Assembly (NCBI GenBank): GCA_902530745.1
Contig: CACABO010000006.1
Location: forward strand, 1-64,000
Direction: 5' to 3'
Origin: an uncultured Alphaproteobacteria bacterium
Lineage (GTDB): Bacteria > Pseudomonadota > Alphaproteobacteria > HIMB59
Length of the DNA: 64,000 bases
Positions 7,797 to 10,912 of the stretch are shown here, piece by piece; within the stretch, counting starts at the first letter, position 1, and each line of letters starts with the position of its first letter. Made by a program: the position numbers and the translations under genes. The notes beneath the pieces are model-generated. The model was given only the letters and a program-made list of their open reading frames with translations. It searched no databases and was not told the DNA's origin.

Positions 7797-7845
7797 TGGT
7801 GGGCCCGGCGGGACTCGAACCTGCGACAACGGCGTTATGAGCACC
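7797..7845 (-). pseudogene. Truncated 3' tRNA fragment (distal island junction)
   Basis: This segment repeats the CCA end, acceptor 3' strand, T arm and anticodon arm of the complete tRNA at 10836-10912. The only mismatch in 49 bp is at 7810 (g, versus a at 10849), which breaks an A-U pair in the T stem. Past 7845 only scattered matches remain (for example gttc at 7848-7851), so the D arm and acceptor 5' strand are absent. It cannot fold as a tRNA. It is best read as the displaced 3' end left by integration, and the stem mismatch fits drift without selection. Confidence 0.88.
7797..7845. repeat. Direct repeat, left copy (attachment-site core)
   Basis: 49-bp direct repeat; its partner is 10836-10884, 3039 bp away, with 48 of 49 bases identical. 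It covers the tRNA 3' half through the anticodon loop, the usual crossover segment for tRNA-targeting integrases. Confidence 0.9.
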
Positions 7846-7888
7846 AAGTTCAAAATTTGCGACTTTGAAAGAATATAAGCATTAAATA

Positions 7889-7924
7889 TTTAGCAATGCC
7901 ATATTTGGCAACGCTACGGCAACA
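7889..7924 (+). repeat. Left-end decamer repeats (possible integrase arm sites)
   Basis: Three related decamers lie in the same orientation: TTTAGCAATG at 7889, TTTGGCAACG at 7904 and TACGGCAACA at 7915. The 7904-7915 pitch is 11 bp, the same as between the two perfect copies at the other end (10751 and 10762). Short direct repeats one helical turn apart just inside attachment cores are typical of tyrosine-integrase arm-type sites. That role is inferred. Confidence 0.55.
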
Positions 7925-7934
7925 ATGCTATATT
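7905..7934 (+). promoter_or_regulatory. Possible promoter for the left island gene series
   Basis: TTGGCA at 7905-7910 and TATATT at 7929-7934 are separated by 18 bp and lie 43 bp before the first small gene. The -35 would overlap one of the decamer repeats, so integrase binding could interfere with transcription. The match is only moderate in such AT-rich DNA. Confidence 0.3.
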
Positions 7935-7976
7935 AACTTTTCATGTATTTAAGTTTACAGAAGGGAGTACTTTCAA

Positions 7977-8084
7977 ATGACATATATATTGGGATTTATT
8001 TTTTTTCTAATAGTTGCCTGTCACTTAGAAAATTTAAGACAATTCAGGGATATTAAAAATAAACAAGATATGGGGATGATGTAG
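7977..8084 (+). CDS. 35-aa single-pass membrane peptide of the island
   Basis: Unrecognised small gene. The ATG is preceded by AAGGGAG at 7961-7967, a good ribosome binding site. The product begins MTYILGFIFFLIVACHLENL, a hydrophobic stretch of about 14 residues followed by a charged tail rich in Arg, Lys and Asp. The stop codon at 8082-8084 is part of the AGGAGG-type binding site for the next gene, which starts 9 nt later, so the two are probably translated in series. No function can be assigned. Confidence 0.6.
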   Translation: MTYILGFIFFLIVACHLENLRQFRDIKNKQDMGMM

Positions 8085-8093
8085 GAGGTTTTA

Positions 8094-8261
8094 ATGTTCG
8101 GACTAGAAATACATTTTGGTTTATTTATCTGGATTGCTATTGCAACTGGTATCGTTGGTTGGAATCTTGGTAAAGCTACAGATAGAATAGAAGCAAAATT
8201 AGAAAAAATTAATTCAAAATTAGACAGAATAGAAATGAGGACAAACAATGAAGACAATTAA
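8094..8261 (+). CDS. 55-aa membrane-anchored coiled-coil peptide of the island
   Basis: Unrecognised small gene with AGGAGG 5 nt upstream of its ATG. It encodes an N-terminal hydrophobic segment (about residues 8-24, FGLFIWIAIATGIVGW) and a short amphipathic helix with heptad-like spacing (DRIEAKLEKINSKLDRIE), so it may oligomerise at the membrane. Its 3' end overlaps the start of the next gene by 14 bp in another frame. This overlap and the ribosome binding site support a real compact operon. Confidence 0.65.
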   Translation: MFGLEIHFGLFIWIAIATGIVGWNLGKATDRIEAKLEKINSKLDRIEMRTNNEDN

Positions 8262-8451
8262 ATTAGAACTATCAGTTAAACTATTATTAGGGGCAATAGC
8301 ATTAGGGTTATTTTTAAATGTGTTCAAGGATTTTCCACCAATGGCAAATGCATCGTACCATGTTCAAAAAGTGGAAATTTGTAATGAAAGTGGATGGACT
8401 TGCGCAGATGTAGGCGTATGGGGACTTGAAGTAGAAAGAAGAGATGATTAG
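8248..8451 (+). CDS. 67-aa small exported/membrane protein of the island
   Basis: Unrecognised. The ATG follows GAGG with 7-nt spacing. The product has a hydrophobic N-terminal segment (about residues 10-25, VKLLLGAIALGLFLNV) and then a roughly 40-residue polar part with two cysteines (EICNESGWTCADVG) that could form a disulfide if the part is periplasmic. An ANA-S context near residue 35 could be a cleavage site. It overlaps the previous gene by 14 bp, and the last base of its stop codon is the first base of the next start (TAGTG). Confidence 0.7.
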   Translation: MKTIKLELSVKLLLGAIALGLFLNVFKDFPPMANASYHVQKVEICNESGWTCADVGVWGLEVERRDD

Positions 8452-8630
8452 TGGGTTGGTGGAATGGCGATTTTGATGAGGAAGAGTTAAAGCCTAAACA
8501 GAAGAAGTGTGAGAAATGTGGTGAAGCTTCTGATGTTTTAGAGAAATGGAAACATATTGATGTTCATATTTGTTTAGATTGTAGAAGAGAAATCTATATT
8601 GAGAATATTGACTATGTTGGCTATCATTAG
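8451..8630 (+). CDS. 59-aa zinc-ribbon-like protein of the island (GTG start)
   Basis: The open frame runs from a GTG that overlaps the preceding stop. A TGA two codons upstream in the same frame excludes a longer start. The product has two CxxC knuckles, KCEKCG near residue 20 and ICLDCRRE near 42, separated by 18 residues, with acidic and aromatic flanks. This is a plausible one-zinc ribbon, possibly binding nucleic acid or a protein partner. I do not recognise a family. The nearest upstream purine tract (AGAAGAG) is a modest ribosome binding site, so coupling to the upstream gene is likely. Confidence 0.6.
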   Translation: MGWWNGDFDEEELKPKQKKCEKCGEASDVLEKWKHIDVHICLDCRREIYIENIDYVGYH

Positions 8631-8636
8631 ATAGAA

Positions 8637-8981
8637 ATGAAATTTATTTTTGGCTTAATAATATCCCTAGCAATAATAGTTCTTATAAGATTTTCTATAA
8701 TTGTTTTAAGGGATATGTTTGGTTATCCTTTAAATTTAGTAATTGTTTTTGGGTCAATATTATTAATAACAGTAGTAGTTTTGTTTACTGTTCATACGAT
8801 TAATAAAAACAAAATAATTAAACTTAAAGAGGAAGGTAAATGGGTAGAGCCTAAAGTAGAACTCAAAAACACCAAAGATGACGAAAATGCCCCTAAGCCA
8901 AACACTAAAATCATACTTACAGTTGGTTTATTGTTATTAATATTAATACCTGGATTAGCATTTTTTTTAAGAACTTTATGA
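8637..8981 (+). CDS. 114-aa membrane protein of the island
   Basis: Unrecognised. Three hydrophobic segments are visible at about residues 4-24, 32-53 and 92-111. Between the second and third is a charged loop of about 40 residues rich in Lys, Glu and Asp (for example KEEGKWVEPKVELKNTKDDE). No signal peptidase site or catalytic motif is evident. It starts 6 nt after the zinc-ribbon gene without a clear ribosome binding site and ends in ATGA, overlapping a 22-codon frame. Confidence 0.65.
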   Translation: MKFIFGLIISLAIIVLIRFSIIVLRDMFGYPLNLVIVFGSILLITVVVLFTVHTINKNKIIKLKEEGKWVEPKVELKNTKDDENAPKPNTKIILTVGLLLLILIPGLAFFLRTL

Positions 8982-9046
8982 AAATCCTCTTAACCCTATT
9001 GTTATTAACCCCTAGTTTGAGTTGGAGGAAAACAAATTATGATTAA
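8978..9046 (+). CDS. 22-codon leader-like open frame in the island
   Basis: A short frame starts at the ATGA overlap with the previous gene and ends 8 nt inside the next one. It encodes a Leu-rich hydrophobic stretch (MKILLTLLLLTPSLSW) and a short polar tail, resembling a bare signal peptide. It may be a relic of a secreted protein, a coupling peptide for the next gene, or chance. Confidence 0.3.
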   Translation: MKILLTLLLLTPSLSWRKTNYD

Positions 9047-9530
9047 ATATTTACTCATATTATTTATTTTTTTCAGTAAAAATATTTTATCTGAAGAACT
9101 ACCAAATTATTATTGCAAAGATGAAACAGGTTTATTTCAGTATCTATTTCAAATATACCCTAATAAACAACCTGTTCTGTGGTTTTTAGAGTCAGGTGTA
9201 TGGGCAAGCAATAAACATAATTCAAAAATTTTACTTGGTGGAGACTTTGGAACAGAAATATTTTTTACATCTAAACTACAAAAACAAAATATATTTTTGG
9301 ATTTTTATAATTTAGGAATGATGAATTATTATGAGGAAGATTTATTTATAGGATTGAGACATTATCAAATATTTACAGGATTTGTTGACACTAATAGCGA
9401 GTATTTTTTTCTTAACCATTTGATTTATTTGGATACAGAAAATAAATATTCTGATGAGGTAGATTTTAATATCCCTCCAAAAGGTTTAACTAAAGCTTTT
9501 GGAATTCTAATAAAGTGTTCTAAATACTAA
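9039..9530 (+). CDS. 163-aa secreted protein of unknown function (island)
   Basis: Unrecognised. The ATG follows GGAGG with good spacing. The N-terminus is a signal peptide (about 1-18, LLILFIFFSKNILS then EELPNYYC). The mature part is rich in aromatic residues and in predicted beta strands, with one cysteine at each end (YYCKDE and LIKCSKY) that could pair in the periplasm. No lipobox is apparent. It is the last gene with a clear binding site in the left-hand series. Confidence 0.7.
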   Translation: MIKYLLILFIFFSKNILSEELPNYYCKDETGLFQYLFQIYPNKQPVLWFLESGVWASNKHNSKILLGGDFGTEIFFTSKLQKQNIFLDFYNLGMMNYYEEDLFIGLRHYQIFTGFVDTNSEYFFLNHLIYLDTENKYSDEVDFNIPPKGLTKAFGILIKCSKY

Positions 9531-9572
9531 AAAAAATATATAGAGCAAAATTTATTAGATAAAATAAATGAA

Positions 9573-10013
9573 ATGTATGCACTTATAGCTCAGTTAAATC
9601 CTAAAAATATTAAATCAAATCAAATAAACTGTACCTGTATTATCTCTAAAGATGGACAATACAATGTTCTTAACCCTCAATTTAAAAAAATCCACCCTGA
9701 ATTGGAGAAAATGCATTGGGTTTATATTAATTTGAAACACCAACCTAATAGTTCTCAAGATGAAAGAGGTAATATTATAAAAACTGTTGATGAAAGGGGA
9801 AGATTTGCAATTAAGATTGATTTAAATCTAATCACAAAAAGTGAATTTGATTCTATAGCAAGGGATTTAAAAAAATATAAAAACGAAAACTCTGATTTAG
9901 AATCCAATTTTATTGATATGATTATAGAATTTAGCAATCCTTTTGGAGCCATAGATAGATATATTTTTTGGAACAAAAAACATCATACAAAATTGTGGCA
10001 AGATAAAATTTAA
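9573..10013 (+). CDS. 146-aa unknown protein of the island
   Basis: Unrecognised soluble protein with no signal peptide or membrane segment. It is rich in Lys, Asn, Asp and Ile and carries a central charged stretch around DERGNIIKTVDERGRF. ATG 9573 may be preceded by an alternative start a few codons upstream, and neither has a ribosome binding site. Its 3' end overlaps the convergent coiled-coil gene by 4 bp. The frame has no stop for 146 codons in very AT-rich DNA, which supports a real gene. Confidence 0.6.
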   Translation: MYALIAQLNPKNIKSNQINCTCIISKDGQYNVLNPQFKKIHPELEKMHWVYINLKHQPNSSQDERGNIIKTVDERGRFAIKIDLNLITKSEFDSIARDLKKYKNENSDLESNFIDMIIEFSNPFGAIDRYIFWNKKHHTKLWQDKI

Positions 10014-10285
10014 AGTTTAAATACTTTATTTATCTTTTGTAAGTGTTCTTTGTATTTTTTATTGTAAATCTTTCTTATACCTTCTAATTCTTTTTTTGGA
10101 GCATCACCACGTTTGAATAATTTCTTGATATTTGAAACTAATTTTTTTAATTCCTTGATTTCAGAGGAGTGAAGTTTAGATAAATCTTTCTTTAAATTAG
10201 ACAACGAGTGATAAGAGCTAGTAATGTTTTCAGCAGCCTTCTCAGCAATTTTTGTATTTTGTTTTTTGTCAACCTGCAGATTCAT
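10010..10285 (-). CDS. 91-aa basic coiled-coil protein of the island
   Basis: Unrecognised. The product is almost entirely helical, with about a third Lys/Glu and heptad-like leucine/isoleucine spacing (for example LSNLKKDLSKLHSSEIKELKKL). It is strongly basic and has no cysteine or membrane segment. Small basic coiled-coil proteins on mobile elements are often DNA-binding or regulatory, but nothing in the sequence proves that. It is the only minus-strand gene inside the island and has its own start region next to the riboswitch promoter region. Confidence 0.6.
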   Translation of the reverse strand: MNLQVDKKQNTKIAEKAAENITSSYHSLSNLKKDLSKLHSSEIKELKKLVSNIKKLFKRGDAPKKELEGIRKIYNKKYKEHLQKINKVFKL

Positions 10286-10382
10286 AATTAAATCATACTT
10301 AACAAAAACTAAAAAATTAAGAGCAAAAATTTAATAACTGTGAAGTAGTTGATAATTAAAACTTTAATTTTTTCATAATGTG

Positions 10383-10410
10383 TTGATATAAATTTAAATT
10401 TATTTATAAG
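10383..10410 (+). promoter_or_regulatory. Promoter for the SAM-II riboswitch transcript
   Basis: -35 TTGATA at 10383-10388 and -10 TATAAG at 10405-10410 with 16-bp spacing. Initiation 6-8 nt later would fall at about 10416-10418, exactly where the first riboswitch helix begins. The independent agreement of promoter and aptamer position supports both. Confidence 0.55.
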
Positions 10411-10415
10411 TATTA

Positions 10416-10476
10416 AAAGCACTGATTTAATTACACAATATTGCGGGTGCTATATAAATGCAGCTAAAACGGTGAG
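10416..10476 (+). ncRNA. SAM-II riboswitch aptamer
   Basis: The conserved blocks of the SAM-II class appear in the right order. P1 5' strand AGCAC (10418-10422) is followed by the loop CTGATTTAA, the tract ATTGCG, the P1 3' strand GTGCT (10447-10451, perfect complement), and the tail AAATGCAGCTAAAAC ending in GGTG. Pseudoknot pairing TTGCG/TGCAG is possible (with G-U pairs), and CAC (10434-10436) can pair with GTG (10472-10474). SAM-II binds S-adenosylmethionine and usually controls methionine or SAM synthesis genes. Here the next gene is an unknown 62-aa protein in a mobile island. The CTGATTTAA and GCAGCTAAA blocks favour SAM-II over the related SAM-V. Confidence 0.85.
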
Positions 10477-10499
10477 TCTTAATTCCCACATTAGTTGCC

Positions 10500-10525
10500 T
10501 TGTTTAAACCAAAGGAGGTTAACAA
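10500..10525 (+). promoter_or_regulatory. Possible SD-sequestering hairpin below the riboswitch
   Basis: TTGTTTAAACC (10500-10510) can pair with GGTTAACAA (10517-10525) with two bulged bases. This would place the Shine-Dalgarno AAAGGAGG (10511-10518) in the loop and upper stem and the first base of the start codon at its foot. It would suit translational control, but the coupling to the aptamer is inferred. Confidence 0.35.
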
Positions 10526-10713
10526 TGCCAATGAAAAAATTAACGCTAAAAGAGATAAGAGAACTAGGAATACCTATTCATCGCTCTTATATACAATTTC
10601 ATCAAAAACCATTACCTAATCAAAAACTTAAAAAGTTTTTAAATGCCGCCAATAAATCAAAGGATAGTAAAAATGGTCAAAGTCATAAAAAGCATAATTT
10701 CCAGAAAGCTTGA
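10525..10713 (+). CDS. 62-aa basic protein under the SAM-II riboswitch
   Basis: Unrecognised. The start chosen is ATG 10525, with AAAGGAGG 6 nt upstream, the strongest ribosome binding site in the window; an upstream in-frame TTG at 10495 lacks one. The product is soluble and basic, with an N-terminal helix (KKLTLKEIRELGIPIHRSY) and a Lys/Asn/His-rich disordered tail. No methyltransferase, SAM-lyase or methionine-synthesis motif is present. As the only gene after the aptamer it is the apparent regulated target. Small size and basicity would fit a nucleic-acid binder or an anti-host peptide, but that is a guess. Confidence 0.7.
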   Translation: MPMKKLTLKEIRELGIPIHRSYIQFHQKPLPNQKLKKFLNAANKSKDSKNGQSHKKHNFQKA

Positions 10714-10750
10714 GGATTTAGTCAAACTAAAGTACAAAACTGGAATAATT

Positions 10751-10771
10751 TTTGGCAACGATTTGGCAACG
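10751..10771 (+). repeat. Right-end tandem decamers (possible integrase arm sites)
   Basis: Two identical TTTGGCAACG copies at 10751-10760 and 10762-10771, 11 bp apart and in the same orientation as the copies near the left end. They lie 65 bp inside the attachment core, in a 122-bp stretch with no gene. Confidence 0.6.
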
Positions 10772-10835
10772 CAAATAGTTTTTTTAATCAAAACGGATAT
10801 TAAGCGTTAAAAAATTTATTGATATTTAAGGATTT

Positions 10836-10884
10836 TGGTGGGCCCGGCAGGACTCGAACCTGCGACAACGGCGTTATGAGCACC
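10836..10884. repeat. Direct repeat, right copy (inside the intact tRNA)
   Basis: Partner of 7797-7845 with one mismatch at 10849. It forms the 3' part of the functional tRNA gene, so integration rebuilt the gene from the element's own sequence, as is usual for tRNA-targeting elements. Confidence 0.9.
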
Positions 10885-10912
10885 GCGTTCTAACCAACTG
10901 AACTACAGGCCC
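10836..10912 (-). tRNA. tRNA with CAT anticodon (probably tRNA-Ile2, else elongator tRNA-Met)
   Basis: Read on the minus strand, the 77 nt form a complete cloverleaf with encoded CCA. The acceptor is GGGCCTG/CGGGCCC (one G-U), the D stem GTTC/GAAC, and the anticodon stem CGGTG/CGCCG (one U-G) around loop CTCATAA. The T arm is GCAGG-TTCGAGT-CCTGC. The CAT anticodon allows Met or lysidine-modified Ile. The acceptor pairs C4-G69 and C5-G68 match known TilS recognition features of tRNA-Ile2, which favours Ile2. It is not an initiator, because position 1 pairs. The gene hosts the island and lies 65 bp downstream of rpoD. Confidence 0.9.

Follow-up and report, generated by a model that had tools for sequence, protein, structure and literature searches.

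A probable SAM-II riboswitch leading a mobile small-gene cassette in an uncultured HIMB59 alphaproteobacterium

SAM-II riboswitches (Rfam RF00521, SAM_alpha; long-loop form, RF01726) precede metX, metY, metA, hom, metC, metW, and bhmT (PMC4239095, PMC5069961, PMC2704228). In the literature searched, their known targets are methionine and sulfur genes; here, the targets are tiny island genes. The RNA described in this work resembles SAM-II in its core blocks, its P1 helix, the core of its pseudoknot, and its position in a 5' leader, and one and the same model (R1, see below) finds both the leaders of the small genes and the metX, metY, and bhmT leaders of the lineage. It differs from SAM-II in having small island genes as targets, in its long loop, in a score that lies under the Rfam cut-off, and in a separate anti-aptamer platform located about 25-60 nt downstream. 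Another described system, SAM-V (RF01826), forms a similar H-type pseudoknot and controls translation in marine alphaproteobacteria (PMC6061858, PMC2704228). However, the SAM-V model gives a relative's copy of our RNA 13 bits, which is far below the SAM_alpha score on the same stretch.

Anti-restriction proteins and control proteins of restriction-modification (R-M) systems are encoded by small genes beside R-M operons and are able to adjust restriction. The small genes of the present cassette that lie beside R-M operons could adjust restriction as well, but they match no family, and their putative control is by an RNA that senses the methyl donor. Searches of titles and abstracts, with partial coverage of the literature, that combined SAM-II and phage, SAM riboswitches and mobile elements, or riboswitches and defence islands returned no comparable case; within that partially covered literature, a mobile small-gene cassette is a new setting for SAM-II.

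In this work, we analyzed a stretch of 64,000 nucleotides (the window; contig CACABO010000006.1, positions 1 to 64,000), to which coordinates without a locus label refer. An earlier note, made from the letters alone, had proposed a SAM-II riboswitch ahead of a small gene on a mobile island. The RNA, the island, and the pairing of RNA and gene, which recurs in two families, have stood up; the gene length, the promoter, and the perfect pseudoknot have not. We conclude that 10416-10518 is probably a SAM-II riboswitch of this lineage, which leads a mobile small-protein cassette and most likely acts as a SAM-repressed translational switch.

Identity of the aptamer

The RNA elements of the leader are as follows.

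10416-10474, plus strand: SAM-II aptamer, long-loop variant (Rfam SAM_alpha 17.3 bits, below cut-off; R1 87.5 bits; kept in relatives)
10418-10423, plus strand: 5' arm of P1 (covariation across aptamers)
10439-10444, plus strand: P2 pseudoknot strand UAUUGC (invariant in close copies)
10446-10451, plus strand: 3' arm of P1 (covariation across aptamers)
10463-10469, plus strand: P2 pseudoknot strand GCUAAAA (invariant in close copies)
10491-10498, plus strand: anti-aptamer UUAGUUGC, complementary to GCAGCUAA at 10460-10467 (predicted ligand-free pairing probability 1.00)
10498-10518, plus strand: CCUU..AAGG hairpin overlapping the Shine-Dalgarno sequence AAGGAGG at 10512-10518 (predicted Shine-Dalgarno openness 0.74 when free, 0.31 with the pseudoknot strands blocked)

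The block pattern GATTT..TATTGC..AAATGCAGCTAAA occurs only once in the genome, at 10416-10474. The ligand-site blocks GAUUU, UAUUGC, and GCUAAA, which we compared with the SAM-II contacts listed in PMC11508383, are present in the window, as the earlier note had claimed, and are invariant in close copies.

Rfam places the RNA below its threshold. For a 131-base stretch, the top match is SAM_alpha with 17.3 bits (E=0.046), and the window aptamer thus falls short of the gathering cut-off of RF00521 (36 bits). A scan of the whole window returned no SAM-II among the above-cut-off matches, a scan of a 941-base stretch returned none at E<=10, and a search of the source genome with RF00521 missed the site at 10416-10474, weak matches being equally common in control genomes. 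Short-loop copies and those of the sister family score 21.6-21.9 bits (E about 0.003), still below the cut-off. However, the source genome's own metX leader scores lower than the window aptamer (11.5-13.2 bits), and the metY leader of one relative scores 17.1 bits. Since these two leaders are also rejected, we take the cut-off to be too strict for this lineage rather than to exclude the RNA. The covariance-model check proposed in the earlier note, by which a score under the threshold would refute the reading, formally goes against the RNA, but the positive controls are missed by the same threshold.

A model of the lineage's own RNAs, R1, was trained solely on 11 small-gene leaders and saw no methionine gene in training; the window aptamer's 87.5 bits are the score of a sequence that is itself in the training set. 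Across the 162 genomes of the order, R1 picks up the leaders of metY, metX, bhmT, and a sulfurtransferase-like gene, and the first three genes were confirmed by family models. Because a model that contains no methionine genes recovers the classical SAM-II targets, this search is strong evidence of identity: the window aptamer is homologous to the methionine-gene leaders of its lineage. By that homology, the RNA at 10416-10474 is classed as a SAM-II riboswitch, and it would be expected to bind SAM.

Two further observations belong here. In G056 (L073) and G052 (L075), SAM-II stands ahead of a sulfurtransferase-like gene (assigned by eye), besides bhmT. In the sister family, there is another SAM-II-like RNA (GAACGATTTGACTCTATTGCGGTTC..AAGCAGCTAAAATGAG; L081 1788-1835, minus strand; L147 18820-18867, plus strand; L150 1023-1070, minus strand), about 65 nt downstream of which lies an 85-aa ORF (MNLCVVSKGSFTKEDYMEL..).

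The P1 region (AGCACT/GGTGCT) forms six pairs, one of which is G-U, in keeping with the helix that had been called perfect. Among close copies, one pair shows compensatory change (CG, UA, or UG). In the wider set, which consists of 38 distinct sequences pre-filtered to form four or more of the five P1 pairs and includes one evident chance match, each of the five pairs occurs in several types. The paired fraction in this set (0.963, versus 0.678 in shuffled sequences) is biased upward because of the pre-filtering, although the filter leaves the variety of pair types unexplained. As for the pseudoknot, also described as perfect, the window copy has only the core complementarity UAUUGC/GCUAAAA; the outer CC/GG pairs are missing from this long-loop copy and present in the short-loop copies.

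A mobile island and its small genes

The island and the genes led by the RNA are the following.

7797-10835, no strand: mobile island at the 3' end of tRNA-Met (58-nt tRNA-Met repeat at its borders; empty site in relatives)
7797-7854, minus strand: partial tRNA-Met copy, the attachment-site repeat (93% identity to 10836-10893)
10836-10912, minus strand: intact tRNA-Met (CAT), the integration site (ARAGORN and Rfam)
10525-10713, plus strand: ORF1, a 51-aa gene read through to 62 aa, with TCA here for the TAA of relatives (12 copies in 10 genomes; coding codon-position pattern)
10673-10810, plus strand: ORF2 (MVKVIKS..), overlapping the ancestral ORF1 stop, its end replaced by island-end sequence (comparison with close copies)

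The two copies of the 58-nt tRNA-Met repeat (7797-7854 and 10836-10893) lie 3.04 kb apart, and mlaC directly adjoins tRNA-Met in 27 of the 29 relatives checked. The target repeat and the empty site in relatives together mark a tRNA-integrated element and bear out the mobile island that had been claimed. There is no integrase-sized ORF, and hence no integrase of its own, within 7797-10835; the island has small genes in common with a G013 element, which encodes a tyrosine integrase and also carries an AlpA-like gene (assigned by eye). Second tRNA-Met pieces occur near the rpoD/tRNA-Met site in G009, G012, G013, G037, and G050, and the site resembles an integration hotspot. A repeat, TTTGGCAACG..GGCAAC, is found close to both island ends (7901-7923 and 10748-10770), where it possibly represents recombinase arm sites.

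ORF1 has relatives at E<1e-20 in nine other genomes of the genus, which makes 12 copies counting that of the window. In all 11 other close copies, the gene stops after 51 codons (..KNG); the 62-aa gene described by the earlier note is this gene with its stop lost. ORF2 starts in a different frame, just ahead of the ancestral ORF1 stop. Because the ORF1 stop and the ORF2 end are both lost, the window copy may be decaying and is perhaps non-functional. ORF3 is a third small gene that comes next in four genomes and elsewhere lies directly behind the aptamer, including at the second locus of the source genome (G000:C12). Differences by codon position (ORF1, 405/200/509; ORF3, 362/117/607) follow the pattern expected of coding genes.

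Searches of Pfam, PHROGs, NCBIfam, and PADLOC with ORF1 and ORF3 gave nothing above the cut-offs, and scans of IMG/VR gave no relatives. The AlphaFold models of ORF1 and ORF3 are weak (pLDDT 78 and 69, pTM 0.44 and 0.29, respectively), and a fold search with the ORF3 model gave a best E of 4.7. Two 34% matches within tape measure genes of phage records (E 0.6-0.9) were taken as chance, and weak ORF1 matches in recN-like ORFs (G003, G030), in G054, and in G023:C15 were discarded by eye.

The aptamer followed by ORF1 or ORF3 forms 34 units in 29 of the 162 genomes of the order. The earlier note had asked whether homologues of the small protein also follow SAM-II: the RNA stands upstream of each of the 12 close copies and of all 34 units, and the pairing is conserved in two families of the order. 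In the sister family, where ORF3 or ORF1 lies behind the aptamer, the pseudoknot region contains the Shine-Dalgarno sequence and ends a few bases before the start codon. In G084, SAM-II is followed by a terminator-like hairpin (by eye) and then by an operon with ORF3 and ORF1, so that it lies several hundred bases upstream.

Leader platform and predicted switching

A strong Shine-Dalgarno sequence (AAAGGAGG) precedes the ATG at 10525, and the good ribosome binding site read from the letters is indeed there. The promoter that had been placed with its start on P1 was not recovered: a scan for consensus promoters gives none upstream of P1, and fewer sites than in shuffles. The folding energy of the leader is no better than that of shuffles (z -0.97).

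Folding was computed for ten leaders, and the bound state was imitated by blocking the pseudoknot strands, the energies of pseudoknots being outside the model. In the ligand-free state, GCAGCUAA is predicted to pair with UUAGUUGC with a probability of 0.81-1.00 in the ten leaders. Upon blocking, four leaders, that of the window among them, fall in predicted openness of the Shine-Dalgarno sequence from 0.71-0.74 to 0.31-0.39, and a fifth falls from 0.58 to 0.30; four others change little, and the metY leader falls from 0.54 to 0.37. Five leaders thus show clear predicted switching, and several others show slight switching. The anti-aptamer platform of the window leader is also present in the metY leader of G015.

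These predictions suggest the following mechanism. At high SAM, the aptamer pseudoknot would hold GCUAAAA, the anti-aptamer helix would be blocked, and the CCUU/AAGG hairpin would hide the Shine-Dalgarno sequence. At low SAM, GCAGCUAA would pair with UUAGUUGC, the Shine-Dalgarno sequence would open, and ORF1 would be translated, as would ORF2 and ORF3 in other copies; the small proteins would then serve the surrounding islands as a response to low SAM. In the sister family, with the Shine-Dalgarno sequence inside the pseudoknot, the same logic would operate by a shorter route. Because pseudoknot energies are outside the model, we infer the OFF state at high SAM, helped by what is known of how SAM-II acts on methionine genes.

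Methyltransferase neighbours and rival readings

The 29 cassette genomes were searched with PF00145, PF02384, and PF01555, and the near-universal PF01555 gene was taken as CcrM and set apart. Besides CcrM, these genomes hold 23 accessory methyltransferases, 13 of which lie within 5.5 kb of a cassette versus 0.3 expected under uniform placement; this test is post hoc because it was prompted by neighbours already seen, and its P value is not literal because some of the methyltransferases share one R-M system and uniform placement ignores hotspots. CcrM lies within 20 kb of a cassette in 0 of 25 cases. C5 methyltransferases are commoner in cassette genomes (15/29 versus 17/133 others, P=1.5e-5, a statistic that ignores phylogeny and completeness), also inside each family (P=0.0002 and 0.02). 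The link to R-M genes is a statistical association.

Among the individual neighbours, a HaeIII-type pair lies 0.3 kb from the second cassette of the source genome; G040 and G044 have an MvaI/BcnI-type pair, G115 has a type I system, and G093 has a type III-like pair (Res subunit by eye). In five genomes, the cassette stands beside differing R-M types at 80-530 nt. Many cassettes, including that of the window, have no R-M methyltransferase nearby, and the window island itself contains no methyltransferase. The suggestion that the island uses SAM to sense the state of methylation draws circumstantial support from co-location and co-occurrence across genomes and finds none in the window island. 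Two arrangements were also seen by the way. In G124 (L145 9051-11345), two SAM-II units, one of the ORF3 type and one of the ORF1 type, flank a C5 methyltransferase and a possible restriction gene. Near the cassette in L103 and L152, a C5 methyltransferase precedes an ATPase-like ORF and a large helicase-like one, by eye a defence operon.

One account of this neighbourhood, which we regard as evenly balanced, treats the cassette as ordinary cargo of islands that has captured a leader of the metY type, meets R-M genes only via common integration hotspots, and encodes proteins for sulfur starvation or for the element itself. This would fit the several cassettes in islands without a methyltransferase found, the three sister-family cassettes amid sulfotransferase-like and other non-defence genes, the near identity of the metY leader and the cassette leader, the tRNA-Met hotspot, and the assumption of uniform placement in the distance test. 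However, methyltransferase co-occurrence is raised at the genome level in both families, and the variety of R-M types so close to the cassette in five genomes is less easily accommodated.

The proximity of accessory methyltransferases but not CcrM, the excess of C5 methyltransferases, and the HaeIII-type pair in the source genome would instead suit a low-SAM response acting on R-M: the small proteins would either curb self-restriction while methylation is failing or step up defence once a phage has destroyed SAM. Phages are known to counter R-M with enzymes that degrade SAM (PMC7877911). We consider this rather unlikely: ORF1 and ORF3 match no family in the databases named above, and the association was found post hoc with statistics that ignore phylogeny and hotspots. 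A role of the small proteins in restriction-modification or defence may be suggested by this neighbourhood. In its fullest form, the idea is of a safety or alarm device for R-M, in which a fall in SAM, through starvation or a phage SAM-degrading enzyme, would lead the small proteins to adjust the restriction or defence of the same island; we hold this to be unlikely. That the aptamer in small-gene copies is a SAM-II-like relic that no longer binds SAM is very improbable, for although the Rfam score is under threshold and the window copy, with its damaged genes, is missing the outer P2 pairs, the core blocks are invariant, and the loop and P1 vary with compensation in functional-looking copies.

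The reading of the RNA as a SAM-repressed switch on a mobile cassette has consequences at two levels. For annotation, the Rfam SAM-II cut-off misses leaders that are likely genuine in this marine lineage. For biology, a SAM sensor on mobile islands, enriched beside methyltransferases that consume SAM, would tie metabolite sensing to genome defence, and the question of whether defence responds to the supply of the methyl donor is made directly testable.
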